This document shows positions 5,204-47,164 of a DNA stretch of 47,852 nt, piece after piece. A program made the translations under genes and the position numbers. How positions within the stretch are numbered: the first letter of the stretch is position 1; each line of letters starts with the position of its first letter. Location of the stretch: positions 1-47,852 of the IMG/VR virus record IMGVR_UViG_3300022925_000041. The stretch is one strand, 5' to 3'. The notes beneath the pieces were generated by a model. It ran no database searches, had not been told where the DNA came from, and worked only from the letters and a program-made list of their open reading frames with translations. Source of the stretch: a virus.

Positions 5204-6057
5204 TGAAACTTAAACACATTATTACATGTGGTTGTAGTTTTGGAGATGCTTATACTTCATGGACATGGCCTCACGTATTAGAATCACATATCAAATCATT
5301 AGACCCTAACGTAACATTTGACCACAGAGGTATGGGTCATCAAGGTCAAGAACTCATACAAAAGAAAACAACAAATGCTATTGTAGATGCATTAGACGAT
5401 GGTATTGATCCATCTGAAATAGGTGTCGTTGTTTCTTGGAGTGGCAATGATCGCAAAACTTGGTACATAACAAACAAAGATTATATTAGTGACATCAAAG
5501 ATCACTGGAGTACGTCTGGTGGAGATATGTGGCATGTACAGTTCTGTGATCTTAAAAACAGTAAAGAAGGTGTGGAAATATTAGAATATAATAATAAAAA
5601 TGGAAATTATTTTGTTCAATATAATCCTAACGGCGGTTGGTATCACTCTGCATGGAATCATAGAGAACCTAAATTTATCAATGATTATATGATGTTTACT
5701 GAACCTGTTACTGACAGAGATTATGATAAACATAACATACACTCATTGCATCTTGCATTAGAAAATATGATTATGTTACAAAATACATGTAAAGTACACG
5801 GTATTAAATTTTATCATCAGTATTACATGGATCATACATACAAAGATATTGAAGCATGTAAGGATCACCCTATCATAGAATATCTTTATAAACAATTAGA
5901 TCAAACGATTAGAGTAAAGCCAGCAATACATGAATATGTTAAACCTTTTGGCATGACAATATCAGAAGAAGATGTGCATCCTAATGAAGAAGGACACAAA
6001 AAATACTTTGATGATATTCTAAAACCCTTTTTAGAAGAAAAAAACTTTTTTGAATAA
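5203..6057 (+). CDS. SGNH/GDSL-type hydrolase inserted after portal gene
   Basis: This 284-residue protein has all four SGNH hydrolase blocks. The nucleophile Ser is in GCSFGD near residue 12, a block II Gly is in GMGHQGQE, block III is WSGNDR (GxND), and the catalytic Asp-His pair is in DVHPNEEGH near the C terminus. Such enzymes are esterases or deacetylases acting on acyl/acetyl groups, often on carbohydrates. There is no signal peptide. The start is GTG at 5203, whose G is the last base of the portal stop codon, so translation is probably coupled. T4 has no such gene between 20 and 67/21. A role in modifying virion or host glycans is inference. A second SGNH-like gene lies at 35201. Confidence 0.7.
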   Translation: MKLKHIITCGCSFGDAYTSWTWPHVLESHIKSLDPNVTFDHRGMGHQGQELIQKKTTNAIVDALDDGIDPSEIGVVVSWSGNDRKTWYITNKDYISDIKDHWSTSGGDMWHVQFCDLKNSKEGVEILEYNNKNGNYFVQYNPNGGWYHSAWNHREPKFINDYMMFTEPVTDRDYDKHNIHSLHLALENMIMLQNTCKVHGIKFYHQYYMDHTYKDIEACKDHPIIEYLYKQLDQTIRVKPAIHEYVKPFGMTISEEDVHPNEEGHKKYFDDILKPFLEEKNFFE

Positions 6058-6060
6058 ATA
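6053..6060 (+). promoter_or_regulatory. Late-type box AATAAATA, 5 nt before ATG (leaderless candidate)
   Basis: AATAAATA-TTAAT-ATG. The box overlaps the stop codon of the upstream gene and lies exactly five bases before the start at 6066, which has no Shine-Dalgarno sequence. Confidence 0.45.
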
Positions 6061-6065
6061 TTAAT

Positions 6066-6296
6066 ATGAAATTATTTGAAATGTTTGATGCGGCAACACC
6101 AGGATACCAAGAAGTTGGAGATGACAACTCTAAACCTATATGGAGAACATCTAGGAAAACAAAACTTACATTAAGTCAAATAAGAAAATTACGAAAAATG
6201 TTAGATGTTAGAAATTATGAAAAAGCAAAGCATTTGACCAAAGTTAGAAATCAGTACGGGGCAAAACCAGATCCAGAGGCTGGTCCTAGTATTTAA
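6066..6296 (+). CDS. Small basic head-region protein (gp67-position)
   Basis: The protein has 76 residues and is rich in Lys/Arg in the middle, with LSQIRKLRKMLDVRNYEKA followed by a short acidic/Pro tail. It occupies the position of T4 gene 67 (an about 80-residue prohead core protein) between the portal and the prohead protease. Small proteins of this kind with an RKLRKM-DVR-YE core are, from memory, common in marine T4-like phages. The composition is unlike the acidic T4 gp67, so orthology is not claimed. No RBS is visible. Instead AATAAATA stands five bases before the ATG. A small core or assembly role is inferred from context. Confidence 0.7.
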   Translation: MKLFEMFDAATPGYQEVGDDNSKPIWRTSRKTKLTLSQIRKLRKMLDVRNYEKAKHLTKVRNQYGAKPDPEAGPSI

Positions 6297-6358
6297 TTTC
6301 CTCTAGTCAGAAAATCGACGGATTTGTCTATTTTCGCCTCAAATACACCAAAAACGCA

Positions 6359-6386
6359 AAAAAGTAGTACTTAAATAGTACTTTTT
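6359..6386 (+). terminator. AT-rich hairpin, possible bidirectional terminator
   Basis: AAAAAGTA (6359-6366) pairs with TACTTTTT (6379-6386) across a 12-base loop. It lies in the 150-bp gap between two head genes. The stem is weak and AT-only apart from one pair, so termination would be partial. Confidence 0.35.
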
Positions 6387-6396
6387 ATAACTACGC

Positions 6397-6404: not shown

Positions 6405-6446
6405 TCTCTACAAAGCCATACTTTATTATATCAGGAGAAAAGTACA

Positions 6447-12074: not shown

Positions 12075-12411
12075 AATCTACTGACATTTCTAATTGTTTT
12101 CGACCCTCTCGTAATTTCTTATTGCGTAATCTACTACAGTTAGCACAGATTGTTAATATGTTTTCTTTTGTTTTGTTATTAGGATTAAAATCTTTATAAG
12201 CAATATCTAATTGAATTAAATCTTCAGGTACAAATCCACACTCAATACACATTGTATTTTTCATTGGTATTTTTTTATTATAGATTGCTTTAGCACAATC
12301 TGTACAATATTTGTGCCATTTTTGAAAGCCATGTTTACTAACGCCGTTTGGTTTAGCAAAAGATATGTTGCAATTACTACATTTTGGTCTTGCCGGTTGT
12401 CTTGTAAGCAT
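12058..12411 (-). CDS. HNH-like zinc-finger protein with degenerate active site
   Basis: The protein has 117 residues with two treble-clef-like Cys pairs: CSNCNISF and CTDC near the N terminus, then CIECGFVPEDLIQLDI and CANCSRL. The layout matches the small HNH endonucleases common in T4-like marine phages, which read roughly C-x2-C...QLDVDHID-N...LQTLCANCHRLKT. Here the catalytic DH is replaced (LDIAYKD) and the final CH becomes CS, so nuclease activity is doubtful. It lies antisense to the structural transcript and overlaps the previous plus-strand gene by 17 bp. It has no RBS; AATAAATA lies five bases before the ATG. Confidence 0.65.
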   Translation of the reverse strand: MLTRQPARPKCSNCNISFAKPNGVSKHGFQKWHKYCTDCAKAIYNKKIPMKNTMCIECGFVPEDLIQLDIAYKDFNPNNKTKENILTICANCSRLRNKKLREGRKQLEMSVDSTIRI

Positions 12412-12416
12412 AATTT

Positions 12417-12424
12417 TATTTATT
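12417..12424 (-). promoter_or_regulatory. Late-type box AATAAATA, 5 nt before ATG (leaderless candidate)
   Basis: On the minus strand the sequence reads AATAAATA-AAATT-ATG. There is no Shine-Dalgarno sequence between box and start. Confidence 0.45.
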
Positions 12425-12473
12425 AAAAAGATTCATAGGGTTCTTTTTTCTAAACTAAATTTTATTATATCAG

Positions 12474-12481
12474 TATAAATA
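12474..12481 (+). promoter_or_regulatory. T4-type late promoter TATAAATA
   Basis: An exact T4 late consensus octamer lies 26 bases upstream of the first fibre gene ATG, in a non-coding gap between divergent genes. Confidence 0.75.
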
Positions 12482-12507
12482 CAGTATATAATTAATGGAA
12501 CCTATAC

Positions 12508-14031
12508 ATGGCCGCAGACAAATTTAATGCATTAACCGGATTATCAGTTGGCTTGCCTCCAATTGATGTAGTAGCCGCTAATGGTAATATCGTTACAAAT
12601 CATAACTATCCACAGGGTAATGTAACATCTAATAGTGTTTATGCAAACAATTACTTTTTTGCTAACGGAGTAGCATTTACAAGTGATCCTGCAGGATCAA
12701 ACACCGAAGTTCAATTCAACAATGATGGTAATTTTGGTGCTAGTCCAAATTTAGTATTTGATTCTAGTGCTGGAACATTGATCTCAGAAAATCTTACAGT
12801 AACAGGCAATACACTATTGGGAGATGTCGAAACAGTAACAATATTAGGTGGAACAAACGGATATGTTTTACAAACAGACGGTTCAGGTGGATTAAGTTGG
12901 ACAGCCCAAACAGGTAATGGTGGCGGAAACGGATCACCAGGCGGCGCCAACATGCAGGTACAGTTCAATAGTGCTGGTTCATTTGCCGGAGATGCAGGAT
13001 TTACATATGATGTAGATGATGATTTACTATCAGCAATACATATTGAAGGTGAAGGCGGCAACTTATCTAACTTAACCTATGCAAACATTACAGGTATAGG
13101 AAACATATCAGCAATCAATCTTACAGGAGCAAACAATACTGTTTTATATGCTAACGGCGTGTTCGCAGATATTTCAGCAGGTGCAAGTGCAAACTTTGCT
13201 AACTATGCAGGTAATGTTACAGTTGCTAGTCAACCAAACATTACTTCAGTAGGTACATTAACAAGTCTTCAAGTCGGTGGCGGATTATCTGTAGTGGGTA
13301 ACATCGGCGGAGCCAATATTGCAATCACAGATACTGCTACATTTACTGGTCCAGTAAATATTGATTCTCTTGGATCACTTGCAGTATCAGGTAATGCAAA
13401 CTTAATGACATCACCTAACATAGAACTTCCAGTAGCAAACTTACACATCGACGGTGGACTTAACGGATATGTATTAGCCACAGATGGAGCAGGTAATCTT
13501 TCTTGGACTCTTAACTCAGGTGGCGGTGGTGGTGGCACCCCAGGCGGAGCCAACACACAAATGCAATTTAACAATCAAGGTGCATTTGGCGGTTCTGCTA
13601 ACTTTGTTTATGACAGCACATTAAACAAAGCAACAATGGCAGGAGAGTTTGTTGCAAATAATTTAACAGTAGGTTCAGGTGCATATTCATTTAGAACTAC
13701 TAAAGTAAAAAACGGTGTAACAACTACTACGTCAGCAGTTGAAATATGTGCAACAGAAGCAGACACAGTATCAGCAATTGATTATACTATTGTTGCTACA
13801 GATCCTGCAAATTCATCCAGACAAACAGTAAAAATTACAACAGCAGTATACGGAACAACAGTGAACTACTCAGAATATGCAACGATTTCTGTGGGTTCAT
13901 TACTTGCTGATTTTGAAGTAACTTATGTTCCGGGAGATGCATTTAGAGATGCCCAAGTAGTACTTTATGCTACTCCAGCCACAACAAACGAAACAACTTA
14001 TAAAATTTTATTAGAGGAATATTCTTCTTAA
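12508..14031 (+). CDS. Repetitive tail-fibre/structural protein, paralogue 1
   Basis: The protein has 507 residues and is Gly/Asn/Thr/Ala-rich, with repeated short beta-strand units. The N-terminal cap (KFNALTGLSVGLPPIDVV) is shared with the genes at 14127 and 19249. Three copies of a module follow the pattern G-x-N-x-[QE]-[VM]-QFN-x(2)-G-x-F-G/A...F (residues about 60, 145 and 345), and there is one QPNITSVGTLTSLQV unit. A C-terminal domain of about 110 residues (TTTSAVEICATEADTVSAID onward) resembles the C termini of the genes at 16301 and 19249. Such modular beta-rich proteins form trimeric fibres in marine myoviruses. It has a TATAAATA promoter. Exact fibre position is unknown. Confidence 0.75.
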   Translation: MAADKFNALTGLSVGLPPIDVVAANGNIVTNHNYPQGNVTSNSVYANNYFFANGVAFTSDPAGSNTEVQFNNDGNFGASPNLVFDSSAGTLISENLTVTGNTLLGDVETVTILGGTNGYVLQTDGSGGLSWTAQTGNGGGNGSPGGANMQVQFNSAGSFAGDAGFTYDVDDDLLSAIHIEGEGGNLSNLTYANITGIGNISAINLTGANNTVLYANGVFADISAGASANFANYAGNVTVASQPNITSVGTLTSLQVGGGLSVVGNIGGANIAITDTATFTGPVNIDSLGSLAVSGNANLMTSPNIELPVANLHIDGGLNGYVLATDGAGNLSWTLNSGGGGGGTPGGANTQMQFNNQGAFGGSANFVYDSTLNKATMAGEFVANNLTVGSGAYSFRTTKVKNGVTTTTSAVEICATEADTVSAIDYTIVATDPANSSRQTVKITTAVYGTTVNYSEYATISVGSLLADFEVTYVPGDAFRDAQVVLYATPATTNETTYKILLEEYSS

Positions 14032-14050
14032 AAAAATAATAAAAAAATAA

Positions 14051-14087
14051 ACGCAAAAAACCATTAGTTAGCAGTTAATTTTTGCGT
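14051..14087 (+). other. Hairpin between fibre genes
   Basis: ACGCAAAAA (14051-14059) pairs with TTTTTGCGT (14079-14087), a 9-bp stem with a 19-base loop, six bases before the TATAAATA at 14093. There is no T-tract after it, so it may be an mRNA 3'-end structure rather than a terminator. Confidence 0.5.
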
Positions 14088-14092
14088 AAAGA

Positions 14093-14100
14093 TATAAATA
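14093..14100 (+). promoter_or_regulatory. T4-type late promoter TATAAATA
   Basis: An exact late consensus lies 26 bases upstream of the ATG at 14127. Its place shows that the longer open frame with a TTG start at 14082 is not the gene start. Confidence 0.75.
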
Positions 14101-14126
14101 CAATTATAGTTTACGGAGACCAAACC

Positions 14127-16298
14127 ATGGCAATCAAAGCATTTAACTCGGTTGCGGGATTTTCAGTAGGAGAAACCCCGGCCAACATAATTTTATCGAA
14201 CGGTTATATCACAACGAACGGCGCAACGTTTACAGCAAACATTGCGGCATTGGGTGTATTAACCGATAACTTATATTACGCAAACGGCGTACCTTGGGAC
14301 TTACAAGAACCAGCAGGCGCTAACACTCAAATCCAGTTTAACGATGATCAGGATTTTGGTGCAAGTGCGAATCTCACATTTGACACTGCTACATCTAACT
14401 TAGATGTCGTAGGTAATGTCACAGCAACAGCATTTTTTGGAGATGGTGCTAACTTAACAGGTATTGATGCGACAGGCATTCAAAACGGAACATCAAATGT
14501 CCGTATACCAGCAACAGATGGCAATATCGAATTAAATTCAGGTGGCAATTTAATTGCAAACATTACAGATACAGGCGCAAACATTACTGGTACATTAAAT
14601 GTATCAGGTATAGTTACTGTTCCTAGTACTACTGGTGCAATTGATGTTGCATTAGGAACACCTACTCAAGGAAATCTAACATCTAATGCTTTAACTTTAA
14701 CAACAGCATCATCGGTCTCCAATTCGATTGCACAGTTAAATGAAGTTTTAGGTAAATTAGTTCCTGAAAGCCCAGATAACTTCCCAGGAAGTCAGTCTAT
14801 TACTATTCAAAGCACATCTTCATACAGAATGGCAGATAACTTTACTCAGCCTGACAACACAGCAGGTGGATCAGCGGCAGTGGCTGCAGGTACAACTGTA
14901 TCTAAAACAAGAAGATCAGCAACGTATGATGTGAATGCAATAACAAACACTGGCCCAGGTGATAATGGTACAGTTTCTGTTCAACTTAATGGTTCAGCCG
15001 CAGGAAGCAGAACTCTTACTACATCACTCGACGGTGACGGTACTTACGGTAACCTAATCATCTCAAATAACGTAGACTATAGTGATGTAAATTCAAACGT
15101 AGCGGCAGGCTTCTGGTCAGTCTTTACAGCAGATGCATCAGGTTCTGTATCAGACGGTTGGAACGAAGTATTAATAGATGATACTGCAACTGCATCTACA
15201 AACAAAGAAACTTGGTACTATGATTCATCGAATCCTGGTACACCTCAGTTTACATCAACATCATTTACTGCACCAGGTGCACCTAGTTATACGTACAGTT
15301 CAACTGTACCTCATTATAACAACACAAATGATTTTGATATAGCATTTAATGTTAATAGATTATCAGGTAACATGTATCCAACAAGTGATACATTTGTCAC
15401 AGGATCTTCAGGCGGTGCTTTTGCATCACCAAGTAGTGTAACATATTCAACTGCTGGAGTAACAACTCCACTAGAGGCTCAGTTGCACGTAGCATCAGGA
15501 AGTCAAGCAGTTACAACTACTTCTTCTATTATTTCAGGATTCGGTTCAAGTGCATCGGGTCCATCAGTTTCTGTCTTTAACTCTTATTCAACAGGAGTAC
15601 AAGCATTTACTCCATCAGGTACAGTACTTTATAAGACAGGTACTTCATCTTCTTCAAGCAGAATTGAAGAAGCAAACGTGTATATTGGTTCATCAATTGG
15701 TTCAGGATCAGGGTTAGCACAACGTATTGAAAACCCAGGATCAGGAGATACACCTGCATTCTCTGCAAGTGCAACAGTATTTGATAGTGAAAACAGCACA
15801 TTACAGACTTATGATGCAACGGTTGTTGCAGATTCACTAAGCCATGACGAGACAGATTATTCTTCTGGTTACTTACCAGTAGGACCTGACTTATCAGCAG
15901 GTAGATCAGGGACACAATATTTCACATTTAAATTTGTAAGAACATCAGTTTCTAAATTTGATGTTAAATTTTCAGGGACATTGGCAGGATGTTGGGTAGC
16001 ACTACCCGGATCAACAATCGATTCATCTTCTTCAGAGAATGGATGGATTGATATGACGGTGTCTTATGCAGGATCGGGTGTTCCCGGTGCTAACACAGGG
16101 TCAGGAGGAAACGGTTCAAACGGTTGTGCATTAGGCGGTGTAATACCAACAGGATCCTCTCAAACAAATAAATCAACGACTGCTACTTTCGGTACAGTAA
16201 GTTCATCTAGTACATCAACTAATGAAATTTATGTTCGTATCGCATTAACAAGCGGTCAATCGATAACAGCCTTATCACTAGAATCTGCGAGTAACTAA
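14127..16298 (+). CDS. Repetitive tail-fibre/structural protein, paralogue 2
   Basis: The protein has 723 residues. The start is the ATG at 14127, preceded by ggagac (14115-14120) and by the late promoter. The N-terminal cap (IKAFNSVAGFSVGETPANII) matches the genes at 12508 and 19249, followed by one NTQIQFND module and the GIxNGTSNVRI unit shared with the genes at 16301, 18500 and 19950. The central and C-terminal 450 residues are different: Ser/Thr-rich, with FTFKFVRTSVSKFDVKFSG and a Gly-rich segment GWIDMTVSYAGSGVPGANTG. They end in a beta domain (NEIYVRIALTSGQSITALSL). This unique part may be a receptor-binding or decoration region. Structural role is inferred from composition and neighbours. 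Confidence 0.72.
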   Translation: MAIKAFNSVAGFSVGETPANIILSNGYITTNGATFTANIAALGVLTDNLYYANGVPWDLQEPAGANTQIQFNDDQDFGASANLTFDTATSNLDVVGNVTATAFFGDGANLTGIDATGIQNGTSNVRIPATDGNIELNSGGNLIANITDTGANITGTLNVSGIVTVPSTTGAIDVALGTPTQGNLTSNALTLTTASSVSNSIAQLNEVLGKLVPESPDNFPGSQSITIQSTSSYRMADNFTQPDNTAGGSAAVAAGTTVSKTRRSATYDVNAITNTGPGDNGTVSVQLNGSAAGSRTLTTSLDGDGTYGNLIISNNVDYSDVNSNVAAGFWSVFTADASGSVSDGWNEVLIDDTATASTNKETWYYDSSNPGTPQFTSTSFTAPGAPSYTYSSTVPHYNNTNDFDIAFNVNRLSGNMYPTSDTFVTGSSGGAFASPSSVTYSTAGVTTPLEAQLHVASGSQAVTTTSSIISGFGSSASGPSVSVFNSYSTGVQAFTPSGTVLYKTGTSSSSSRIEEANVYIGSSIGSGSGLAQRIENPGSGDTPAFSASATVFDSENSTLQTYDATVVADSLSHDETDYSSGYLPVGPDLSAGRSGTQYFTFKFVRTSVSKFDVKFSGTLAGCWVALPGSTIDSSSSENGWIDMTVSYAGSGVPGANTGSGGNGSNGCALGGVIPTGSSQTNKSTTATFGTVSSSSTSTNEIYVRIALTSGQSITALSLESASN

Positions 16299-16300
16299 AA

Positions 16301-19246: not shown

Positions 19247-19248
19247 TA

Positions 19249-20796: not shown

Positions 20797-20816
20797 AAAT
20801 CAATACGGGAAATAAC

Positions 20817-20824
20817 GATAAATA
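20817..20824 (+). promoter_or_regulatory. Late-type promoter box GATAAATA
   Basis: The box is 46 bases upstream of the ATG at 20871, in a 74-bp gap. Confidence 0.55.
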
Positions 20825-20870
20825 GAATTATGCTGAAAAGGCAAATTTAACTATAATAGGGTAATAGGAA

Positions 20871-25077: not shown

Positions 25078-25103
25078 AGAGAGAGTCGAAAGACTCTCTT
25101 TCC
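25078..25103 (+). terminator. Strong hairpin terminator with GAAA tetraloop
   Basis: The AGAGAGTC/GACTCTCT stem is extended by G-T and A-T pairs, closed by a GAAA loop at 25088-25091 and followed by TTTCC. It ends the fibre-gene transcript. Confidence 0.8.
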
Positions 25104-25135: not shown

Positions 25136-25143
25136 GATAAGTA
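25136..25143 (+). promoter_or_regulatory. Variant late-type box GATAAGTA, 5 nt before ATG
   Basis: GATAAGTA-GATAT-ATG. It has one mismatch to GATAAATA, with the same five-base gap as the other leaderless candidates. Confidence 0.3.
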
Positions 25144-25148
25144 GATAT

Positions 25149-25586
25149 ATGAATACTTTTACGATGAGTTTCGATACTCGGATGGCTGAATGGTATCAAT
25201 TGCGTGAATCACTAAAAGATTCAGATTTAGAAAAAATATGTATAGACGTAGATAAATTTTGGCAACAATGTCCACTAAATAACTATTATCTACATCCACA
25301 TGATATAAAAGATTGGCCCAATCCATGGCAACTCTTACAAGATAATCATTACTGTTTTTATGCACGTGCATTGGGTAACATATATACTTTGGCAATATTG
25401 GGCATAAAAGGTGTTGACTTAGTATCAGCAATAGATTATACTGATACAGAAGTAGTATTAGTCCTAGTAGACAACGCAAAGTATGTGTTGAATTACTGGC
25501 CGGACTCTGTAGTAAATACAGTGCTGTCGGATTTTAAGAATGTCAAGCATATTGACATAGAACCGTTGTATAACAAAATAAATTAG
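25149..25586 (+). CDS. Conserved-looking protein of unknown function next to nrdA
   Basis: The protein has 145 residues. I recognise no family. It is rich in Trp/Tyr/Asp, with MAEWYQLRESL, VDKFWQQCPLNNYYLHPHDI and DWPNPWQLLQDNHYCFYARA. It looks like a soluble globular protein with a helical N-terminal half and a beta C-terminal half (VLVLVDNAKYVLNY). It ends 7 bp before nrdA and is probably cotranscribed with it. No Shine-Dalgarno sequence precedes the ATG at 25149; a second in-frame ATG at 25164 is an alternative. Its link to nucleotide metabolism is only by neighbourhood. Confidence 0.65.
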   Translation: MNTFTMSFDTRMAEWYQLRESLKDSDLEKICIDVDKFWQQCPLNNYYLHPHDIKDWPNPWQLLQDNHYCFYARALGNIYTLAILGIKGVDLVSAIDYTDTEVVLVLVDNAKYVLNYWPDSVVNTVLSDFKNVKHIDIEPLYNKIN

Positions 25587-33450: not shown

Positions 33451-33479
33451 TTGATTCGCATTAAATATTAGTATACAAT
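33451..33479 (+). promoter_or_regulatory. Sigma70-like promoter for metK (TTGATT-N17-TACAAT)
   Basis: TTGATT is at 33451-33456 and TACAAT at 33474-33479, with a 17-base spacer, ending 16 bases before the metK ATG. There are nine of twelve matches to the consensus hexamers. Confidence 0.5.
33460..33467 (+). promoter_or_regulatory. Late-type box ATTAAATA before metK
   Basis: The box lies within the sigma70-like promoter spacer, 28 bases before the ATG, so metK may be read both early and late. Confidence 0.35.
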
Positions 33480-33495
33480 ATACTAAAGGAAACAT

Positions 33496-34629
33496 ATGAG
33501 TTATTATTTTACGAGTGAAAGTGTCTCAGAAGGACACCCAGATAAAGTTGCGGACGCAATCAGTGATGCAATACTTGATTCATTTATGCAACACAGAGAC
33601 CCTAGTTTACGATGTGCGTGTGAAACTCTAGTAACTACAAATAAAGTAGTAGTTGCAGGAGAATATAAAGGAGCAATTGACAGTTTAGATGTTGAATATC
33701 TTGTACGTAGAGTTGTTAAAAATATTGGTTATGAGCAAGAAGGCTTCCATTGGAACAACTTAGACGTACAAAATTTACTACATGGACAGTCGCCTGATAT
33801 TGCATTAGGTACAGATAATTTTGGAGCAGGTGATCAAGGTATTATGTTTGGTTATGCAACCAAAGACACAGAAAATTTTATGCCGGCCCCTCTTTTCTAT
33901 TCACATAGAATTGTAGAAATGCTTTCATATGTAAGAAAGCAAGGAATTCTTCCTTGGCTAGGCCCTGACTCTAAATCACAAGTTACTGTAGAATACAATG
34001 ACGATAACACAGTTAAACGTATCGATAAAGTAGTTTGTTCTACTCAGCATGTTGAACAGGTCGATATAGAGACTGTGAGGGCACAAATACAAGAAGTAAT
34101 TCAAAAGACTTTGCCAGCAGAACTTTTAGATGAAAACACACAATATTTAATTAATCCAACAGGTAGATTTGTTGTAGGTGGACCAGATGGAGATACAGGA
34201 ATCACAGGAAGAAAGATTATTGTTGACACATATGGTGGCATGGCCCCTCATGGTGGCGGAGCATTTTCAGGAAAAGATCCTTCTAAAGTAGATAGATCAG
34301 CGGCATACATGGCTCGTTATCTTGCAAAAAATATTGTAGCATCAGGTCAAGCAGATTGGGCTAACATTCAATTAAGTTATGCAATTGGCGTAGAACAACC
34401 TACAAGTGTTTATGTAGAAAGTGATAGAGATAGTAGAGATTTAACTAAATGGATTACAGATAACGTAGATTTATCACCTAAAGGTATTATTGATAGATTT
34501 AATTTATTCTCTCCTATATACGGAGCCACTACTAACTACGGACACTTTGGAAAAGAATATTTACCTTGGGAAAAACTCGACTTGTTCCCGGAAGAAAAGC
34601 CAAAGAAGAAAACAGTAAAGAATAAATAG
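33496..34629 (+). CDS. metK: S-adenosylmethionine synthetase
   Basis: The 377-residue MetK (E. coli 384) makes SAM from methionine and ATP. Signature motifs are intact: ESVSEGHPDKVADAISDA at the N terminus (ATP/Mg binding), the hexapeptide GAGDQG near residue 113, NPTGRFVVGGPDGDTG, and the P-loop-like GGGAFSGKDPSKVDRS. The C-terminal YGHFGKEYLPWEKLD is typical. RBS aaagga precedes the ATG. A complete metK is rare in phage genomes. It could supply the two methyltransferase-like proteins encoded at 37467 and 39695 or replace host SAM. It starts the accessory block with iscU 65 bp downstream. Confidence 0.97.
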   Translation: MSYYFTSESVSEGHPDKVADAISDAILDSFMQHRDPSLRCACETLVTTNKVVVAGEYKGAIDSLDVEYLVRRVVKNIGYEQEGFHWNNLDVQNLLHGQSPDIALGTDNFGAGDQGIMFGYATKDTENFMPAPLFYSHRIVEMLSYVRKQGILPWLGPDSKSQVTVEYNDDNTVKRIDKVVCSTQHVEQVDIETVRAQIQEVIQKTLPAELLDENTQYLINPTGRFVVGGPDGDTGITGRKIIVDTYGGMAPHGGGAFSGKDPSKVDRSAAYMARYLAKNIVASGQADWANIQLSYAIGVEQPTSVYVESDRDSRDLTKWITDNVDLSPKGIIDRFNLFSPIYGATTNYGHFGKEYLPWEKLDLFPEEKPKKKTVKNK

Positions 34630-34651: not shown

Positions 34652-34705
34652 ATGAATCAGACTATCAAAGCAGTATCAACGAGAGTTGGTACTCATGGCT
34701 TATAG
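34652..34705 (+). CDS. 17-residue upstream peptide overlapping iscU start
   Basis: ATG at 34652 to TAG at 34703-34705 encodes MNQTIKAVSTRVGTHGL. It has the strong SD (aaaggag, 34638-34644) that iscU itself lacks, and it ends 10 bases inside iscU. This geometry suggests translational coupling or a leader peptide. It is too short for homology to help. Confidence 0.35.
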   Translation: MNQTIKAVSTRVGTHGL

Positions 34706-35075
34706 TGATAAAGTATTAGATCATTACGAAAATCCTCGCAATGTAGGTAAAATGAATGATAACGACTCAGATGTGGGTACAGGCATGGTAGGTGCTCCCG
34801 CATGTGGAGACGTTATGAGATTGCAAATTAAAGTAAATGACGAAGGAGTTATTGAAGATGCTAAGTTTAAAACGTATGGGTGCGGGTCTGCAATTGCATC
34901 AAGTAGTCTCCTCACAGAATGGGTCAAAGGACAAACCCTCGAACAAGCAGAAACAATTAGAAATACTCAAATCGCGGAAGAACTCGCACTCCCCCCGGTC
35001 AAGATCCACTGTTCAGTTTTAGCAGAAGATGCAATCAAAGCCGCAGTCAACGATTACAGAAAGAAACAGCAGTAA
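34695..35075 (+). CDS. iscU: Fe-S cluster assembly scaffold protein
   Basis: The 126-residue IscU is colinear with E. coli IscU. Cluster ligands are Cys37, Asp39 (APACGD), Cys63 (TYGCGSA) and Cys106. The HscA-binding LPPVK at 99-103 is complete. It receives sulfur from IscS, builds 2Fe-2S clusters and passes them on through HscBA chaperones. The start is the ATG at 34695 (MAYSDKVLDHYENPRNVG); a TTG nine bases upstream adds only three residues. iscS, iscA, hscA and fdx are not in this window, so the phage protein must use host partners. Retention of LPPVK implies a host with an ISC/HscBA system. Confidence 0.97.
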   Translation: MAYSDKVLDHYENPRNVGKMNDNDSDVGTGMVGAPACGDVMRLQIKVNDEGVIEDAKFKTYGCGSAIASSSLLTEWVKGQTLEQAETIRNTQIAEELALPPVKIHCSVLAEDAIKAAVNDYRKKQQ

Positions 35076-36752: not shown

Positions 36753-36846
36753 ATAAGTATATATGCCTTTTGGCGCCAAAAAAATATTTTTATACTCAAA
36801 TTTCATGTTAAATACTACACAATTATATTACTACAGGAGGAATAAA

Positions 36847-37368
36847 TTGAAAACAGTAGGCGATAAATTTCCAGCATTTTCACTGCAAGGAATAAATGAA
36901 AACAATGAGTTTGTACAAGTTAACGTAGACGAAGGTTATACCCCGCACAAAAAAGATTGGTCTGTGGTATATTTTTATCCAAAAGATTTTACATTTATTT
37001 GTCCAACTGAAATTGCAGGTATGGACGTGTTAGCAGAACACGCAAATGTTATCGGTATCTCTGGAGACAATGAATTCTGTAAACTGGCTTGGAAAAAGGA
37101 TAATGAATTAATAGGAAATATTAATCATTGTTTGGCTGCCGATTGTGGTCTTGGATTATCACATGAATTGGGTATTGTAAATGAAGAAGCAGGTGTTGCA
37201 TATCGTGCAACGTTTATCTTTGATAAAGATAGAACTATTCAACACGTATCTATCAACGCATTAGATACAGGAAGAAACGCACAAGAAATCCTACGAACTT
37301 TAAAAGCATTACAAGCAGGTGGATTGACCGGTTGTGCTTGGGACGAAGGCGACGAATTACTAGGCTAA
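36847..37368 (+). CDS. AhpC/TSA-family peroxiredoxin
   Basis: The 173-residue thiol peroxidase detoxifies H2O2 and organic peroxides. The active-site signature PKDFTFICPTE gives peroxidatic Cys52 with Pro45 and Thr49 (PxxxTxxC). The conserved Arg is in YRATFIFDKDR. A second Cys near the C terminus (GLTGCAWDEGDE) is a candidate resolving Cys, so a typical 2-Cys mechanism is likely. The start is the TTG at 36847, because aggaggaa (36835-36842) stands immediately before it; upstream codons in the frame lack homology and an RBS. tRNA-Ser begins 8 bp downstream, so both are probably on one transcript. Confidence 0.92.
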   Translation: MKTVGDKFPAFSLQGINENNEFVQVNVDEGYTPHKKDWSVVYFYPKDFTFICPTEIAGMDVLAEHANVIGISGDNEFCKLAWKKDNELIGNINHCLAADCGLGLSHELGIVNEEAGVAYRATFIFDKDRTIQHVSINALDTGRNAQEILRTLKALQAGGLTGCAWDEGDELLG

Positions 37369-37376: not shown

Positions 37377-37466
37377 GGAAGATTGGCAGAGTGGTTGAAT
37401 GCACTGGTCTTGAAAACCAGCATACGAGAGATCGTATCGAAGGTTCGAATCCTTCATCTTCCGCCA
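37377..37466 (+). tRNA. tRNA-Ser (anticodon UGA), CCA encoded
   Basis: The 7-bp acceptor GGAAGAT/ATCTTCC is present, with anticodon loop CTTGAAA (TGA at 37411-37413), a long variable arm (ATACGAGAGATCGTAT) as in class II tRNAs, T-arm GAAGG-TTCGAAT-CCTTC, discriminator G and CCA at 37464-37466. It reads UCA, frequent in this AT-rich genome. Confidence 0.96.
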
Positions 37467-38018
37467 TTACTTTTTACCGATTAACATAAATCGGTTATAA
37501 CTAGAACTTCCATAATCAAAATGTTTTGTTTCTGAATATAAAAGTTCTGACATTGGAAATCTTTCTTGTAATGACCCAATACTAGTACACGGATTCGATA
37601 CAAGCCAAGGTTTTTTATGTTCTGTAACATCACTGGACTGAATACATACTAATGCATTTGGGTCAACATTATTAAACCAATCGTCTTTCATATGCTCTAC
37701 ACTACAGTTAATTACTACATTATGTCCTTGTAAATTGTAGGTATCTGCGTTTGCACATGTATTTCTAATCTGTGAATCTGTGCCTAACATAAAGCCCTGA
37801 CATAGCATATCAGCGCCTCTAATCGCCTCTGAGTCAATATCTATGCCTAAGATGTGTTGATACTTGTTTTTATTACGAGTTAAAAGCATAAAACCTAATA
37901 AATTATACCAGCACCCGGGCACTGCAACTACAGCATCTTTTGGTATATACGGTTCGATAGTTTCACACAACCAAAGTTTAGATTGTGTTTGACCATGTGA
38001 AAAAGATAATGGATCCAT
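37467..38018 (-). CDS. Class I SAM-methyltransferase-like protein
   Basis: The 183-residue Rossmann-like protein has a strand/turn AVVAVPGCWYNLLGFML in the motif I position (GxG degenerate), the acidic end of strand 2 in HILGIDIDSEAI, and a motif IV-like strand NVVINCSVEHM. The SAM-binding Gly motif is not canonical, so activity is uncertain and the substrate unknown. The stop codon starts on the base next to the CCA of tRNA-Ser. It lacks a Shine-Dalgarno sequence and has ATTAAATA five bases before the ATG. It is divergent from the tRNA-Thr promoter region. Confidence 0.6.
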   Translation of the reverse strand: MDPLSFSHGQTQSKLWLCETIEPYIPKDAVVAVPGCWYNLLGFMLLTRNKNKYQHILGIDIDSEAIRGADMLCQGFMLGTDSQIRNTCANADTYNLQGHNVVINCSVEHMKDDWFNNVDPNALVCIQSSDVTEHKKPWLVSNPCTSIGSLQERFPMSELLYSETKHFDYGSSSYNRFMLIGKK

Positions 38019-38023
38019 AATAC

Positions 38024-38031
38024 TATTTAAT
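38024..38031 (-). promoter_or_regulatory. Late-type box ATTAAATA, 5 nt before ATG (leaderless candidate)
   Basis: The minus strand reads ATTAAATA-GTATT-ATG. Confidence 0.45.
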
Positions 38032-38045
38032 GGGTAAAAAAACCG

Positions 38046-38074
38046 TTGACAAAAAATAATGATGCTGATATAAT
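38046..38074 (+). promoter_or_regulatory. Perfect sigma70-type promoter TTGACA-N17-TATAAT for tRNA/fpr unit
   Basis: TTGACA is at 38046-38051 and TATAAT at 38069-38074, with a 17-base spacer, 23 bases before tRNA-Thr. This is the second complete consensus promoter in the window. Confidence 0.88.
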
Positions 38075-38078
38075 GACT

Positions 38079-38086
38079 ACTAAATA
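38079..38086 (+). promoter_or_regulatory. Late-type box ACTAAATA beside the sigma70 promoter
   Basis: It lies just downstream of the -10 hexamer and 11 bases before tRNA-Thr, suggesting dual early/late transcription of the tRNA unit. Confidence 0.35.
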
Positions 38087-38097
38087 AATGAACAAAT

Positions 38098-38173
38098 GCT
38101 CCAGTAACTCAGTTGGTAGAGTAACTGATTTGTAATCAGTAGGTCGGCGGTTCGAATCCGTCCTGGAGCTCCA
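38098..38173 (+). tRNA. tRNA-Thr (anticodon UGU), CCA encoded
   Basis: Acceptor GCTCCAG/CTGGAGC, anticodon stem ACTGA/TCAGT with loop TTTGTAA (TGT at 38131-38133), T-arm GGCGG-TTCGAAT-CCGTC (one G-T pair), discriminator T, CCA at 38171-38173. It reads ACA. Confidence 0.96.
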
Positions 38174-38190
38174 TATTTTAGAGGGAAAGT

Positions 38191-38403
38191 TTGAACCTTA
38201 AAGAGAAGATTAATGATAGAATGGATCAATTGCAAGCCTGGATGGAGAGCAATTATCATTTAAATCATGCAGAAGAAGTCTACGAACACACTCTTAATAT
38301 CAGTAAGTTTTGGTCTGTTTTGACAGAAGAAGACAGAGAATATATACAGTGTGCCCAAGATGCCATCGAAGAATCTACTCCATGGGGAGATCCAAATAAA
38401 TGA
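38191..38403 (+). CDS. Small acidic conserved-type protein between tRNAs
   Basis: The 70-residue helical protein has segments MDQLQAWMESNYHLNHAEEV and SKFWSVLTEEDREYIQCAQD. From memory, proteins with this late DREYI-CAQDAIEE pattern are found as small hypothetical genes in marine T4-like phages. The start is the TTG at 38191 with agggaaag just upstream; the next ATG (38221) would lose ten residues. It sits 17 bp after tRNA-Thr and ends three bases before tRNA-Ala, so it is transcribed within the tRNA unit. Function unknown. Confidence 0.7.
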   Translation: MNLKEKINDRMDQLQAWMESNYHLNHAEEVYEHTLNISKFWSVLTEEDREYIQCAQDAIEESTPWGDPNK

Positions 38404-38406
38404 AAG

Positions 38407-38482
38407 GGGGCCGTAGTTCAGTTGGGAGAACGTCTGGTTTGCAACCAGAAGGTCGGCGGTTCGACCCCGCCCGGCTCCACCA
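38407..38482 (+). tRNA. tRNA-Ala (anticodon UGC), CCA encoded
   Basis: Acceptor GGGGCCG/CGGCTCC contains a G3-U70 wobble pair, the alanine identity element. Anticodon loop TTTGCAA has TGC at 38440-38442. T-arm GGCGG-TTCGACC-CCGCC, discriminator A, CCA at 38480-38482. It reads GCA. Confidence 0.95.
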
Positions 38483-38498
38483 GTGTTCAAAAAGTTTT

Positions 38499-38585
38499 GC
38501 CCGAGTGGTGGAATTGGTAGACACAAGGGACTTAAAATCCCTCGACCTTACGGTCATGCCGGTTCAAGTCCGGCCTCGGGTACCA
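38499..38585 (+). tRNA. tRNA-Leu (anticodon UAA), CCA encoded
   Basis: Acceptor GCCCGAG pairs with CTCGGGT (terminal G-U). Anticodon loop CTTAAAA has TAA at 38533-38535. The long variable arm (CGACCTTACGGTC region), T-arm GCCGG-TTCAAGT-CCGGC, discriminator A and CCA at 38583-38585 are present. It reads UUA. Confidence 0.95.
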
Positions 38586-42855: not shown

Positions 42856-43625
42856 GTTGGAAAGTCTATACTCCACATCGATTTTTCAGGAGAGCCGGGT
42901 AAATATAAATCATCTTTATGTGCCCATCTGACTGTAAATGCTAAACGAGGTTTTTTATCTTTGCTCATGTTAGAGTTAACACCATGCACTGCACAATTAC
43001 CGTTAATTGATATTGCTTCATTTTGTTTAGGTTCATAAATATAACCACTCAAAGAATATAATTCTCCACCGCAGTCTCGTACATGATCATGTAGATAAAA
43101 TGTCAATGATCTTGCCCTAGCAGTTTTGCATGTCGGAGTATTAAAAAATTGATCAGCCATGTCAACGTGAGTATGAAGATAACTTTGATATGGTAAATAA
43201 TTAAGATGTAATCTATGCGGTACCCAATTTTGATCAATAGGTTCTTTATCTTTGAAGTAATTTATATGATGATAAAATATAGGATGAATAGAATTTTTTA
43301 GTGTGTCCCAACTCCAGTCAACAACTGTGTCGGATGTTTGATTCCACCAGCCTTTTTCAGCAGTTAAATCGTATATTACTTCTTGTTCTCTTGTGTTTTG
43401 TTTGTGTGATATAATATGATGACGTTTATCATTGTGAGTAAATGATGTTCTATGAGTCAAATATGTAAGTTTATTCGGTCTGTCTAAGTGCGATTGAACT
43501 GTGTCTTTTAATAATTTATAATAATTTTTATCATACACATTAGAATATTTGTACACATGCAACGGCTGAGTCATGTCTGACCAATGCTTGTTGGGCTTGT
43601 CTTCTTTGTATTCGGTAACGTCCAT
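42852..43625 (-). CDS. 2-oxoglutarate-Fe(II) oxygenase
   Basis: The 257-residue protein has a jelly-roll 2OG oxygenase core. The iron ligands are His153-x-Asp155 (HTHVDMAD) and His214 (CAVHGVN), the 2OG-binding Arg is probably Arg227 (KPRLAFTV), and there is the typical CGGELYSL strand (residues 185-192). Prolyl-4-hydroxylase-like oxygenases of this kind are frequent in cyanophages. The substrate is unknown (protein, glycan or nucleic acid). It needs Fe(II), 2OG and O2, so it links to the iron/redox genes upstream. There is no Shine-Dalgarno sequence; CATAAATA is five bases before the ATG. Confidence 0.85.
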   Translation of the reverse strand: MDVTEYKEDKPNKHWSDMTQPLHVYKYSNVYDKNYYKLLKDTVQSHLDRPNKLTYLTHRTSFTHNDKRHHIISHKQNTREQEVIYDLTAEKGWWNQTSDTVVDWSWDTLKNSIHPIFYHHINYFKDKEPIDQNWVPHRLHLNYLPYQSYLHTHVDMADQFFNTPTCKTARARSLTFYLHDHVRDCGGELYSLSGYIYEPKQNEAISINGNCAVHGVNSNMSKDKKPRLAFTVRWAHKDDLYLPGSPEKSMWSIDFPT

Positions 43626-43630
43626 AAAGA

Positions 43631-43638
43631 TATTTATG
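43631..43638 (-). promoter_or_regulatory. Late-type box CATAAATA, 5 nt before ATG (leaderless candidate)
   Basis: The minus strand reads CATAAATA-TCTTT-ATG, in the 27-bp gap after the peptidase gene. It would give the oxygenase and GNAT genes their own transcript. Confidence 0.5.
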
Positions 43639-44426: not shown

Positions 44427-46226
44427 TTATTTTAATGAAGCACCCCAATTCGCAAAGAAACTGATGCTGTTAACATCTGTCAATGCTAGGGTAACGTCTG
44501 CTTCTAATGAATCATATGCTTCTTGGTCGCTCCATGAGTTTGAATGGAAGTAAAAAAGTGTAGTAGATTTAATTGTAGTTCTACTTGATTTTGCTATGCC
44601 CACAAACTCAACCATTTCTAATGCTGTGTCTGCGGGTAATAAGATACCTGTTGCAGTTTTAATTTCAATTATACCTGTCGCAGGATCTAAAACTAGATAT
44701 TCACTATACTTTTCTTTAATATCTTCTTTTAAAAACTCAATAGAATATGTAAATTCATCATTTGGATATAATTTTTTCCATTTTGACAAATCTATGTTTG
44801 AGTTTAAATCAACTACAATAGCATCACCGTCTAGTGAGTTTGCAACACCTATATATGATACCATGTCTGCGTCTTTGTAGTTAACAAGTGGATCAGCAGT
44901 AAAAACGTATGCTAATTTATTTTGTTCTTCTGTAAATGTTGTATCTTCAAACAAGAGTGCGTTAGGAGTTGCAGTATCTAAAATCATACTTTTCATTTCA
45001 GTTGCTGTAACCATATCTTCATTCATTGAACCGATAACACCTGCGATACCTGCGACTAATGGAGCCGCAAATGATGTACCAGATGTGATACCGTATGGTT
45101 GACTTGAACCAACGCAGTGTGCTACCATTACTGATTCGCCCGGAGCAAATAAATCTAATGATAAACCTGCACCTGATGTGAGCCCTTCATCACTAGGTGA
45201 AATATTGTTGAAACCTGCCGGGATATCATACTTATCAGTTGCACCGATTGTTAAACAATCATCAATACCCGCCGGAGTAACTAACTCAACGTCAATACCG
45301 CTGTTACCGGCTGCCGCAACAACTGTCACACCTGCTGACATTAGTGATTGAAATTTAGCATCTAAGTATGCTGAACGAGCAACACCCCAAGACACATTTA
45401 AGATACGTGTTTTGTTTGGATTTGCTACTACTTCTGCTTCTAATGCATCTAATGCTTTACCTAACTGTAAAATTGATGCTTGTTTGCTTACGCCCGGGTC
45501 TATTAAGTTGCCGTTTTCGTCTGTTTCGTTTCCTGCAATTTTGATAACTCTAAGTTTTACGTTATCTGAAATACCTAAGTTGGTACCGACTGCCATTGAT
45601 GCTACAGCAGTACCGTGACCCTTCTGATCACCTGCTTCCCATATACCGTCTAAGCACCAAAATGTATCAATCTCTAAATCTGTACCCTGAAATTCAGCAT
45701 GAGTAGAATCAATCCCTGTATCCATAATATAAAGTTCAGGTTTGCTTAAAAAATTTGAGTCATGCATTGAGTATGAAGTAACTAGTGGACGATATGTTGA
45801 TGCAACTCTAATGCGAGCCCATTGTCCTTCAGCACTATTTGGATTGATATCTGTATCTGTTGAATTCATTTGAGATACAGTACTTGTACCTAAGAATTCT
45901 ACAGGAGAATCTGAAGGATCAATTCCTTCAACTGCCTCTCCTAATGCTAAACCTTTAGTTGACTTAACTCTAAAGAATCCTTTACCTAAATCTTCTTCGA
46001 CGGTTGTTCCTTCACATGCTTCGATTGCGGCTTTATCGCCTTTAACAATAAATTCACGTTCATCTTCGTCTTTTTGTTCTAGTGAACATGATTGATCTTT
46101 TATTGCATCTTCTGCTAGATGCCACTCTATGTCGAGTGTATCGCCTTCAGGGGCAGACAGTTTCCACTTATCAGCAAATGCCTTAGCATTTACATCACTG
46201 TCAAATGTGACTTTTAATTTACTCAT
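44427..46226 (-). CDS. Subtilisin-like serine protease (S8), no signal peptide
   Basis: The 599-residue protein has a complete S8 catalytic set: Asp169 (IMDTGIDS), His204 (KGHGTAVAS), oxyanion Asn308 (AAAGNSG) and Ser385 (TSGTSFAAP). Residues 1-145 are a charged non-catalytic N-terminal region, perhaps a propeptide or virion-anchoring domain. Residues about 430-599 form a C-terminal beta-rich extension. There is no Sec signal, so it acts in the cytoplasm or inside the virion, or is released at lysis. The start is the ATG at 46226 with ggag nine bases upstream; a TTG further up is ignored. It heads a six-gene minus-strand operon with its own late box. Confidence 0.93.
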   Translation of the reverse strand: MSKLKVTFDSDVNAKAFADKWKLSAPEGDTLDIEWHLAEDAIKDQSCSLEQKDEDEREFIVKGDKAAIEACEGTTVEEDLGKGFFRVKSTKGLALGEAVEGIDPSDSPVEFLGTSTVSQMNSTDTDINPNSAEGQWARIRVASTYRPLVTSYSMHDSNFLSKPELYIMDTGIDSTHAEFQGTDLEIDTFWCLDGIWEAGDQKGHGTAVASMAVGTNLGISDNVKLRVIKIAGNETDENGNLIDPGVSKQASILQLGKALDALEAEVVANPNKTRILNVSWGVARSAYLDAKFQSLMSAGVTVVAAAGNSGIDVELVTPAGIDDCLTIGATDKYDIPAGFNNISPSDEGLTSGAGLSLDLFAPGESVMVAHCVGSSQPYGITSGTSFAAPLVAGIAGVIGSMNEDMVTATEMKSMILDTATPNALLFEDTTFTEEQNKLAYVFTADPLVNYKDADMVSYIGVANSLDGDAIVVDLNSNIDLSKWKKLYPNDEFTYSIEFLKEDIKEKYSEYLVLDPATGIIEIKTATGILLPADTALEMVEFVGIAKSSRTTIKSTTLFYFHSNSWSDQEAYDSLEADVTLALTDVNSISFFANWGASLK

Positions 46227-46264
46227 GTGTTTGGGCTCCAAAATTTGTGTGCATAACTATATTG

Positions 46265-46272
46265 TATTTATC
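46265..46272 (-). promoter_or_regulatory. Late-type promoter box GATAAATA for the minus-strand operon
   Basis: The minus strand reads GATAAATA, 38 bases upstream of the subtilase ATG, in the divergent gap 46227-46339. Confidence 0.55.
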
Positions 46273-46326
46273 ATTAATCGCAGATACACAAGGATAAGCA
46301 CAATATTTTTACAGTACTATTTATCG

Positions 46327-46334
46327 ATTAAATA
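46327..46334 (+). promoter_or_regulatory. Late-type box ATTAAATA, 5 nt before ATG (leaderless candidate)
   Basis: ATTAAATA-TCATT-ATG, the same octamer and gap as before the gene at 38018 (minus). Confidence 0.45.
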
Positions 46335-46339
46335 TCATT

Positions 46340-47164
46340 ATGTCTTTCAAAGTGCATTTAATACATGATTTATACTATGGTTTTAATGAACCTACTGATC
46401 CTGCTGATTTAGAGTTGCCTGAATGTGATTTAGTCATTCTTAATGGTAATATAGCAGAAAACGGCAAACGTAGTATATTCTATGCATTTGAACTTGCAAC
46501 GGTGTATCCTAACATACAGTTTGTGTATAATGACGGATATATAGAAAGATATCGATTTACATCGGATAAATGGGAATACGAATATGAAAATAGTATATCT
46601 ACACGCATTCAGCAAAAAGAATGGCCTAAAAACTTACATTGGAAAGATCCTAGGTCACCACAAGGCTTAGAAATTTTATTGCAAACAGGTCAAACTATAT
46701 CTGTTTGGTGTGCATTTGGTTTCCCCAATATCGTAAAATGTAACATTGATTGGGAAGACACTTGGTTCTATCGTAATATAAGTCAAGGACAAATTCCAGT
46801 ATATAATTTAGACTCAGATATTCTTCCCGGCACAGATTTAAAACTTTTTGGAGATATGGATAAGTGGGCTAGTAAAGAATTTATAGAACAAAAGTACACA
46901 GAACAACTCGACATGATTAGAGATTGGGAAACTAAACAAATAGCAAACAAACATTATGGTATATTAGTAACCCATCTTAGTCCATACAAGGATACTAGAT
47001 TAGAAGGCCTATCATACACAGGCTACAACATACATTTACATAATCGTATATGGGCTACTACTCATATAAAAGAAAAAGTAAATTACGTAGGCGCAGATTT
47101 AGTAAGTAATCCAGGACGAGGATCAGGGCCTAGAGGGAAAGTGTTTGAAGTAGATAGAATCTAA
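46340..47164 (+). CDS. Divergent calcineurin-like phosphoesterase
   Basis: The 274-residue protein has a strand-turn pattern of metallophosphoesterases: HLIHDLYYGFNEP at the N terminus (DxH region, degenerate), DLVILNGNIAENGK (GDxx/GNH-like), FVYNDGYIERY, and GILVTHLSPYKD (GH-like) near residue 210. Several metal ligands are replaced compared with the canonical D-x-H / GD / GNHE / GH set, so catalysis is uncertain. No RBS; it has ATTAAATA five bases before the ATG. Its 3' end overlaps the convergent gene by 42 bp. It could be a nucleotide or nucleic-acid phosphatase; low certainty. Confidence 0.5.
   Translation: MSFKVHLIHDLYYGFNEPTDPADLELPECDLVILNGNIAENGKRSIFYAFELATVYPNIQFVYNDGYIERYRFTSDKWEYEYENSISTRIQQKEWPKNLHWKDPRSPQGLEILLQTGQTISVWCAFGFPNIVKCNIDWEDTWFYRNISQGQIPVYNLDSDILPGTDLKLFGDMDKWASKEFIEQKYTEQLDMIRDWETKQIANKHYGILVTHLSPYKDTRLEGLSYTGYNIHLHNRIWATTHIKEKVNYVGADLVSNPGRGSGPRGKVFEVDRI

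Follow-up and report, generated by a model that had tools for sequence, protein, structure and literature searches.

In a T4-like phage genome fragment and its relatives, a set of genes carries a late-promoter box at a fixed distance of 4-5 nt from the start codon, and these genes are best interpreted as late genes that are transcribed without a 5' UTR and translated by leaderless initiation. They exist beside ordinary leadered late genes. The start of transcription is inferred from the spacing of the T4 late promoter, the leaderless mode of translation is also inferred, and we are confident, although not certain, of this interpretation. The class was first recognized in the window, the whole stretch of 47,852 nucleotides analysed here (IMG/VR virus record IMGVR_UViG_3300022925_000041, positions 1 to 47,852). 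Six boxes of this type had been noted in a preliminary description and all six were confirmed, each followed by five bases and an ATG that opens an ORF. Five are exact TAAATA-N5-ATG at gene starts and the sixth is a one-base variant. The boxes and the associated features of the window are as follows:

6053..6068 (+), late box AATAAATA, spacer TTAAT, ATG at 6066 (76-aa gene after the portal region, phrog_13986); the TAA of the box is the stop codon of the upstream ORF 5203-6057
12409..12424 (-), late box AATAAATA, spacer AAATT, ATG at 12411 (117-aa protein, no family above its cut-off)
12425..12448 (-), hairpin ending in a T run directly before the 12424 box, a terminator-like element between the box and anything transcribed from upstream
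25079..25100 (+), stable hairpin between the preceding 1388-aa gene and the 25136 box, terminator-like but followed by only a short T run (-13.5 kcal/mol, z -2.7)
25136..25151 (+), variant late box GATAAGTA, spacer GATAT, ATG at 25149 (145-aa protein)
38016..38031 (-), late box ATTAAATA, spacer GTATT, ATG at 38018 (183-aa protein)
43623..43638 (-), late box CATAAATA, spacer TCTTT, ATG at 43625 (257-aa protein)
46327..46342 (+), late box ATTAAATA, spacer TCATT, ATG at 46340 (274-aa protein); the upstream neighbour 44427-46241 is divergent
20819..20850 (+), a further TAAATA-GAATT-ATG whose ATG opens only a 6-codon ORF upstream of the 1388-aa gene at 20871; not counted in the class
3378..3412 (+), leadered contrast, TAAATA 26 nt before the portal-protein ATG at 3410
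12476..12510 (+), leadered contrast, TAAATA 26 nt before the ATG at 12508
33462..33498 (+), leadered contrast, TAAATA 28 nt before the ATG at 33496, with the Shine-Dalgarno (SD) motif AGGA

The window has 55 exact TAAATA sites on both strands. Five exact boxes at a gap of 5 nt were found among 44 gene starts, while the mean in shuffled sequences was 0.10 with a maximum of 2, and none of 4,000 shuffles reached five. The chance of about 0.002 per gene given in the preliminary description is of the right order. In a hexamer-by-position scan of 40 window starts with no motif chosen beforehand, TAAATA at gap 5 is the strongest signal (5 of its 12 occurrences). None of the six genes has a strict SD 4-mer (GGAG, GAGG, AGGA) in the 20 nt before the ATG. 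However, the earlier claim that most other genes have an SD is overstated under this strict definition. An SD was found in 12 of 25 other starts in a hand-made list, from which a 26th entry was dropped because it was not a start codon, and in 36% of 958 starts of genes of 100 aa or more in the clade.

The same spacing was sought in ten contigs of related phages, without the window, using 200 shuffles of each. TAAATA ends 4-5 nt before the first ATG of an ORF 67 times against about 4.3 in shuffles, is at chance at 8-15 nt (19 against about 16), and rises again at 16-30 nt (147 against about 32). The observed number exceeds every one of the 200 shuffles in 9 of the 10 long relatives. The exception, contig G009, has 0 by the first-ATG rule and 3 when any in-frame ATG near the ORF start is allowed. 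Counted once per protein family by the latter rule in 11 contigs, 49 families have the box at gap 4-5 (46 without the window), against 3 to 8 per two-gap bin at 8-15. An SD motif is present in 1% of 81 gap 4-5 genes and in 53% of 167 genes at gap 16-28, although part of this difference follows from the box lying where an SD would. The distances are bimodal, with predicted leaders of about 0 or of about 10-25 nt, while leaders of about 3-10 nt are at chance, as leaderless initiation predicts. The ORFs of these scans came from a simple longest-ORF caller, and deposited annotation was used for HTVC008M, Mosig and Melnitz only. Of the clade contigs, G001 was represented by 220 of 223 kb and G008 by 60 of 61 kb, and G004 was only pattern-searched.

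The class is not special to one genome but occurs in two clades. In the Pelagibacter phage HTVC008M, 12 of 14 TAAATA-N5-ATG matches are deposited CDS starts, seven of them of virion genes by name. Two divergent genes of this phage (starts 18916- and 18943+) have 26 nt between their ATGs, which hold both boxes. Deposited CDS starts also agree in 7 of 11 matches in Mosig and in 3 of 5 in Melnitz, although Melnitz is weak alone (3 against 0.57, shuffle maximum 4). A capsid tree needs two changes of the label. In contrast, T4, KVP40, CBB (part), PA5oct, Syn9 and S-PM2 show no excess at 4-5 nt, and their boxes near gene starts lie mostly about 16-36 nt before the ATG. By the looser any-ATG rule the gap 4-5 counts in controls are T4 1, P-SSM2 4, PA5oct 3, Vibrio phage 2.275.O 1, and 0 for Syn9, S-PM2, KVP40 and CBB. 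Of these, KVP40 was represented by 240 kb of 245, and 2.275.O and CBB by 100 and 160 kb of stretches, not all adjacent, that were chosen because they hold pattern matches and structural genes and were joined for scanning. phiM12 (80 kb) shows no TAAATA peak at all and is uninformative.

Homologous upstream regions gave further support for two of the window genes. Of 46 distinct homologous regions with an ATG for the 76-aa gene, 33 have the box at gap 5 and 41 at gap 4-7, and the three with a box at 15-19 all carry an SD. For the 117-aa gene, 17 of 18 distinct regions have the box at gap 4 (9) or 5 (8). In these counts identical regions were merged and hits starting beyond residue 12 were dropped (61 hits to 49 rows for the 76-aa gene, 3 of them without an ATG nearby, and 22 to 18 for the 117-aa gene). 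Homologues of the proteins at 38018- (2 weak) and 25149+ (4) gave no informative upstream regions and none were found for 43625- and 46340+, so for these four the argument rests on the window and on the class as a whole. Of the four homologues of the 25149 gene, three have an ATG near the expected start and none of these has TAAATA in the 40 nt before it. However, TAAGTA also peaks at gap 5 in 81 loci (11 against 0-8 at other gaps), although loci L009-L088 of this count overlap with contigs G001-G011 and are not independent of them.

The promoters appear to be of the T4 late type. They share the core (N)(A/T)TAAATA with the T4 box TATAAATA, with a relaxed first base as described for other T4-likes (PMC1524935), and the same core marks the leadered genes. 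The late sigma family phrog_234 (gp55) was identified in 10 of 11 relative contigs. It was not found in the window, a fragment in which absence shows nothing. The T4 box spans -13 to -6 (PMC1524935; PMC2988020), so a gap of 5 nt puts +1 on the A of the ATG, provided that the spacing known for T4 with E. coli polymerase applies here. Consistent with a pyrimidine-purine initiator at the ATG, base -1, which is not part of the box, is a pyrimidine in 90% of 50 gap-5, 67% of 30 gap-4 and 100% of 22 gap 6-7 genes, against 43% of 689 other genes (Fisher p 3e-11 for gaps 4-5; p 0.012 against 66% of 176 leadered-box genes). The gap-4 genes are also common (30 of 81), would need initiation one base earlier, and their share of -1 pyrimidines is no higher than that of leadered genes. 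A sharp TSS signal in leadered boxes was found only weakly, with pyrimidine-purine steps at offsets 6 and 7 of 0.35 and 0.30, against 0.25 and 0.22 from base frequencies and 0.30 and 0.15 in intragenic boxes. No clear preference for ATG was seen, although leaderless initiation should prefer AUG: non-ATG starts are 7 of 88 at gap 4-5 (81 ATG, 4 GTG, 3 TTG) and 24 of 191 in the leadered class (167, 7, 17). A-richness of codons 2-5 also did not separate the classes.

Function does not separate the classes cleanly, as judged from the 25 commonest families of each scan. The gap 4-5 proteins (77 of the 80 genes so assigned, three being lost at segment borders) include portal, gp25, baseplate, homing endonucleases, methyltransferases and sugar enzymes. 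The leadered proteins (73 of 166, all from G001-G003, with very long and some short ones left out) include virion proteins, RNR and homing endonucleases.

Translational coupling is an unlikely alternative, in which the genes are read from longer polycistronic mRNAs, ribosomes reinitiate at the ATG after ending the upstream gene, and the box is a secondary promoter. In its favour, 30 of 81 gap 4-5 genes in the clade have a same-strand stop codon within 15 nt upstream, so reinitiation is possible for them, and for the 76-aa gene the stop codon lies in the box itself. However, 51 of 81 do not have this layout, and 22 have an opposite-strand upstream neighbour, so they need a promoter of their own. 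A terminator-like hairpin abuts the box in some members of the 117-aa family; it is strong in L010 and L012 (-11.9 and -11.7 kcal/mol), weaker in the window (-5.1, z -2.3) and not significant in L015. Reinitiation does not explain the fixed distance between box and ATG, the chance-level zone at 8-15 nt, or the -1 pyrimidine.

It is equally doubtful that transcripts start a few bases upstream or at several positions, leaving a very short leader of 1-5 nt, with SD-independent translation through AU-rich, unstructured RNA or protein S1. Gap 6-7 (a leader of 1-2 nt by the T4 spacing) is also enriched (22 genes, 11 per gap against 3.1 at 8-15), and start selection by polymerase may wobble by a base or two. 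However, the gap 6-7 genes have T at -1 in 91% and a pyrimidine in 22 of 22, again placing a preferred start on the A, and starting 5 nt earlier would leave the T4 spacing.

Chance in AT-rich sequence or misplaced start codons is very improbable: although raw counts of TAAATA-N5-ATG are not much above the reversed-pattern control in several genomes (T4 itself has 10 against 5), which were too noisy and led us to anchor the tests at gene starts, the anchored excess is about 15-fold in relatives and absent in similarly AT-rich T4 (0 against 0.94) and PA5oct (2 against 2.4), deposited CDS starts agree as described above, and N-termini are alike from the first residues in the six members examined of the 76-aa family and, more loosely, of the 117-aa family.

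Leaderless mRNAs are known in bacteria, for example the 171 leaderless TSS of Sinorhizobium meliloti (PMC3616915). These have a TSS on the first base of the AUG, which is only predicted here, and share with the class described here the lack of an SD and a promoter element a fixed short distance before the ATG, but here the promoter is a phage late-type box and the class is presumably tied to the late phase. Leaderless phage genes such as lambda cI and P2 gene V appear to be single genes with a promoter placed at the start codon, while here dozens of families share one promoter type. In T4, homing endonuclease ORFs also have a late promoter close upstream (PMC2988022). In one cluster of 23 genes that we judge by eye to be homing endonucleases, 22 have the box at gap 5 and 1 at gap 4, although the cluster was made from genes with gap 4-7. 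The late transcripts of I-TevI, however, keep an SD and are freed from an inhibitory hairpin; they are not leaderless. We found no report of the present class in the literature searched, which did not include most subscription journals.

A more speculative and rather unlikely possibility is that two separate lineages of T4-like phages converged on a leaderless late regulon, in which part of the virion and accessory genes are made at late times by a translation route that does not need the anti-SD, perhaps favoured by a change of the ribosome during infection. A candidate is the phage-encoded ribosomal protein bS21 found in HTVC008M, Mosig, Melnitz and three contigs of the window's clade (G002, G003, G004). 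The match is only partial, since PA5oct and 2.275.O carry bS21 without showing the class, and the other eight clade contigs, which may be incomplete, gave no bS21 hit.

T4 late transcription is a textbook system in which boxes stand a leader's length before the gene. A gene class in which the same promoter defines the start codon would mean that in some aquatic phages late genes are translated by two routes. It would also improve gene-start annotation, as a box 4-5 nt before an ATG marks the start, and would give natural leaderless/leadered homologue pairs with which to ask what leaderless initiation is good for.

The window is a 47,852-base linear IMG/VR fragment of a T4-like phage. The portal (phrog_213), head protease (phrog_207) and major head protein (phrog_138) are clear. 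By major head protein its nearest named phages are Vibrio phage 2.275.O (69%), Sinorhizobium phage Phosso (67.5%), the PA5oct-like Pseudomonas phages (67%) and the CBB/GAP32-like jumbo phages (66%). The one 8-kb stretch that was compared has no near DNA match in the phage collection. Other features of the window are as follows.

34686-35075: NifU-like Fe-S protein
36763-37368: AhpC/TSA peroxiredoxin
37377-38585: four tRNAs
44427-46241, minus strand: subtilase
13207-24527: large structural genes that share diverged repeats; the 3-kb stretch 20871-23871 matches nine other places in this interval at 71-100% identity over 21-494 bases

The preliminary description reported six genes with a late-promoter box 5 nt before the ATG, and all six boxes and ATGs are exactly as described. 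Five are exact TAAATA-N5-ATG at ORF starts, and the sixth (25136+) has one mismatch. Dinucleotide shuffles of the 44 upstream regions give a mean of 0.10 exact boxes at that position and a maximum of 2, and none of 4,000 shuffles reaches 5. In a scan of every hexamer at every distance, TAAATA at gap 5 (five nucleotides between box and ATG) is the top signal of the window. However, the statement that most other genes have an SD is overstated, as an SD was found by a strict definition in 12 of 25 starts in a hand-made list. The following features lie at or near boxes of the window.

6055-6057: TAA of the late box, which is also the stop codon of the upstream ORF 5203-6057, so that box and stop codon share bases
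12425-12448: hairpin with a T run directly before the late box of the gene for a 117-aa protein
20819-20850, plus strand: a further TAAATA-GAATT-ATG, which opens only a 6-codon ORF 41 nt before the start of the 1388-aa gene; it could be a leaderless leader peptide or a chance ATG at +1

The arrangement is replicated in related phages. In 81 loci (888 kb; 80 relatives plus the window) TAAATA precedes an ATG of an ORF of at least 40 codons 86 times at gap 5 and 29 times at gap 4. Clustering of the genes at gaps 4-7 gives a 76-aa protein after the portal region (44 genes; 36 at gap 5), a group that looks like homing endonucleases (23; 22 at gap 5), the 117-aa protein on the other strand (18; 9 at gap 4 and 9 at gap 5), and many smaller groups and singletons. 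In the six members of the endonuclease-like cluster that were inspected (loci L018, L021, L022, L028, L033 and L038) the gene lies directly after the major capsid gene, with the box at gap 5. The N-termini of these six differ, so different endonucleases seem to use the same slot.

In eleven long contigs (ten relatives and the window) the distances between box and ATG are bimodal. Counted once per protein family, there are 49 families at gap 4-5 and 15 at gap 6-7, then 3, 8, 6 and 8 in the two-gap bins from 8 to 15, and 14-26 in the bins from 16 to 27. Against shuffles, the ten relatives together give 67 boxes (about 4.3 expected) at gap 4-5, 19 (about 16) at gap 8-15 and 147 (about 32) at gap 16-30. 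Nine of the 10 relatives exceed all of 200 shuffles at gap 4-5.

Some isolated phages show the same spacing. Pelagibacter phage HTVC008M has 11 boxes at gap 5 against 0-3 at any other gap. Of its 14 genome-wide TAAATA-N5-ATG matches, 12 are deposited CDS starts: a dioxygenase, CsgF, a cyclase, tape measure, end protector, head closure, tail tube cap, baseplate wedge subunit, baseplate wedge initiator, tail completion, a regulator and one hypothetical gene. The other two matches (97647 and 142692) are not deposited starts. The divergent pair at 18916- and 18943+ has 26 nt between the ATGs, and both boxes lie within it. In Pelagibacter phage Mosig 7 of 11 matches are deposited starts, and in Methylophilales phage Melnitz 3 of 5. 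Genes of like annotation and N-terminus keep the layout, namely the end protector in HTVC008M and Mosig and the cyclase in HTVC008M and Melnitz. In Melnitz, the gene after the major capsid gene has the box, an ATG 5 nt later, and its deposited start 17 nt further with an SD-like AAGGG, which looks like the leadered form of the same layout. This phage resembles the window at 20819-20850 in having an extra ATG, 17 nt before a deposited gene start (MZ577097.1 129255).

Several other T4-like phages lack the class. The counts at gap 4-5, with expectation in parentheses, are T4 0 (0.94), KVP40 0 (0.54), CBB part 0 (0.67), PA5oct 2 (2.4), 2.275.O part 0 (0.43), Syn9 0 (0.26), S-PM2 0 (0.43) and P-SSM2 3 (1.1, shuffle maximum 4). 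All of these show the leadered peak. The part of phiM12 examined has 0 at all three ranges and is uninformative. A major-capsid tree of 22 phages needs two changes of the label, and its well-supported branches force two, so the class probably arose, or was kept, more than once. However, the labels of Melnitz and of G009, one of the ten relative contigs, rest on weak numbers alone. The ribosomal protein bS21 is encoded in 8 of the 23 phage records searched (contigs G002, G003 and G004 of the window's clade, HTVC008M, Mosig, Melnitz, PA5oct and 2.275.O), which is only a partial overlap with the putative leaderless class.

The late box of T4 lies at -13 to -6 (PMC1524935) and about one helical turn before +1 (PMC2988020). 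With a five-base gap and the spacing of T4, +1 would be the A of the ATG. Three results bear on this beyond the box itself. First, distances that would give leaders of about 3-10 nt are at chance, while those of about 0 and 10-25 nt are enriched. Second, the base before the ATG is a pyrimidine in 90% of 50 gap-5, 67% of 30 gap-4 and 100% of 22 gap 6-7 genes, against 43% of 689 other genes and 66% of 176 leadered-box genes; polymerases generally prefer a pyrimidine at -1 and a purine at +1. In the pelagi/methylophages it is a pyrimidine in 95% of 20 gap-5 genes against 48% of 340. The contrast with leadered genes is much weaker (p 0.012 and 0.017) than that with other genes. Third, within the 76-aa family 41 of 46 upstream regions have the box at 4-7, and the three with the box at 15-19 all have an SD. 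One more (locus L032) seems to start at a GTG with an SD, and the last (PA5oct) has no box in 40 nt.

ALTERNATIVES. Reinitiation from the upstream gene could serve the 30 of 81 genes whose neighbour stops within 15 nt, but 22 have an opposite-strand neighbour. In addition, in the 117-aa family a hairpin with a T run abuts the box; of the four sequences folded, it is strong in two (loci L010 and L012), weak in the window and not significant in the fourth. Very short leaders cannot be excluded for gap 6-7. Chance is made very unlikely by the family counts and by the deposited starts.

The promoter is of the T4 late type, with the same core and a gp55-family sigma in 10 of 11 relatives, although the sigma was not found in the window fragment. 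Leaderless mRNAs are known in bacteria, for example 171 in S. meliloti, all starting with AUG (PMC3616915), and phage transcripts have been called 'often leaderless' (PMC5312081). A leaderless late class in T4-like phages was not found in the literature searched, which included work on the late promoters of cyanophages (PMC2984593, PMC3037559), a methylophage genome (PMC9004378), T4 homing endonucleases (PMC2988022) and a reference line in a paper on Pelagibacter RNA (PMC2704228).

The observation and its enrichment are near certain, and confidence in the identity of the promoter is high. Overall confidence in the leaderless interpretation is fairly high, but is slightly reduced by the modest contrast in the -1 pyrimidine between these and leadered genes. 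In the absence of any mapped 5' end, transcription starting on the ATG is considered likely. Leaderless translation is likely if this start site is right, since no other start site is then available in the RNA.
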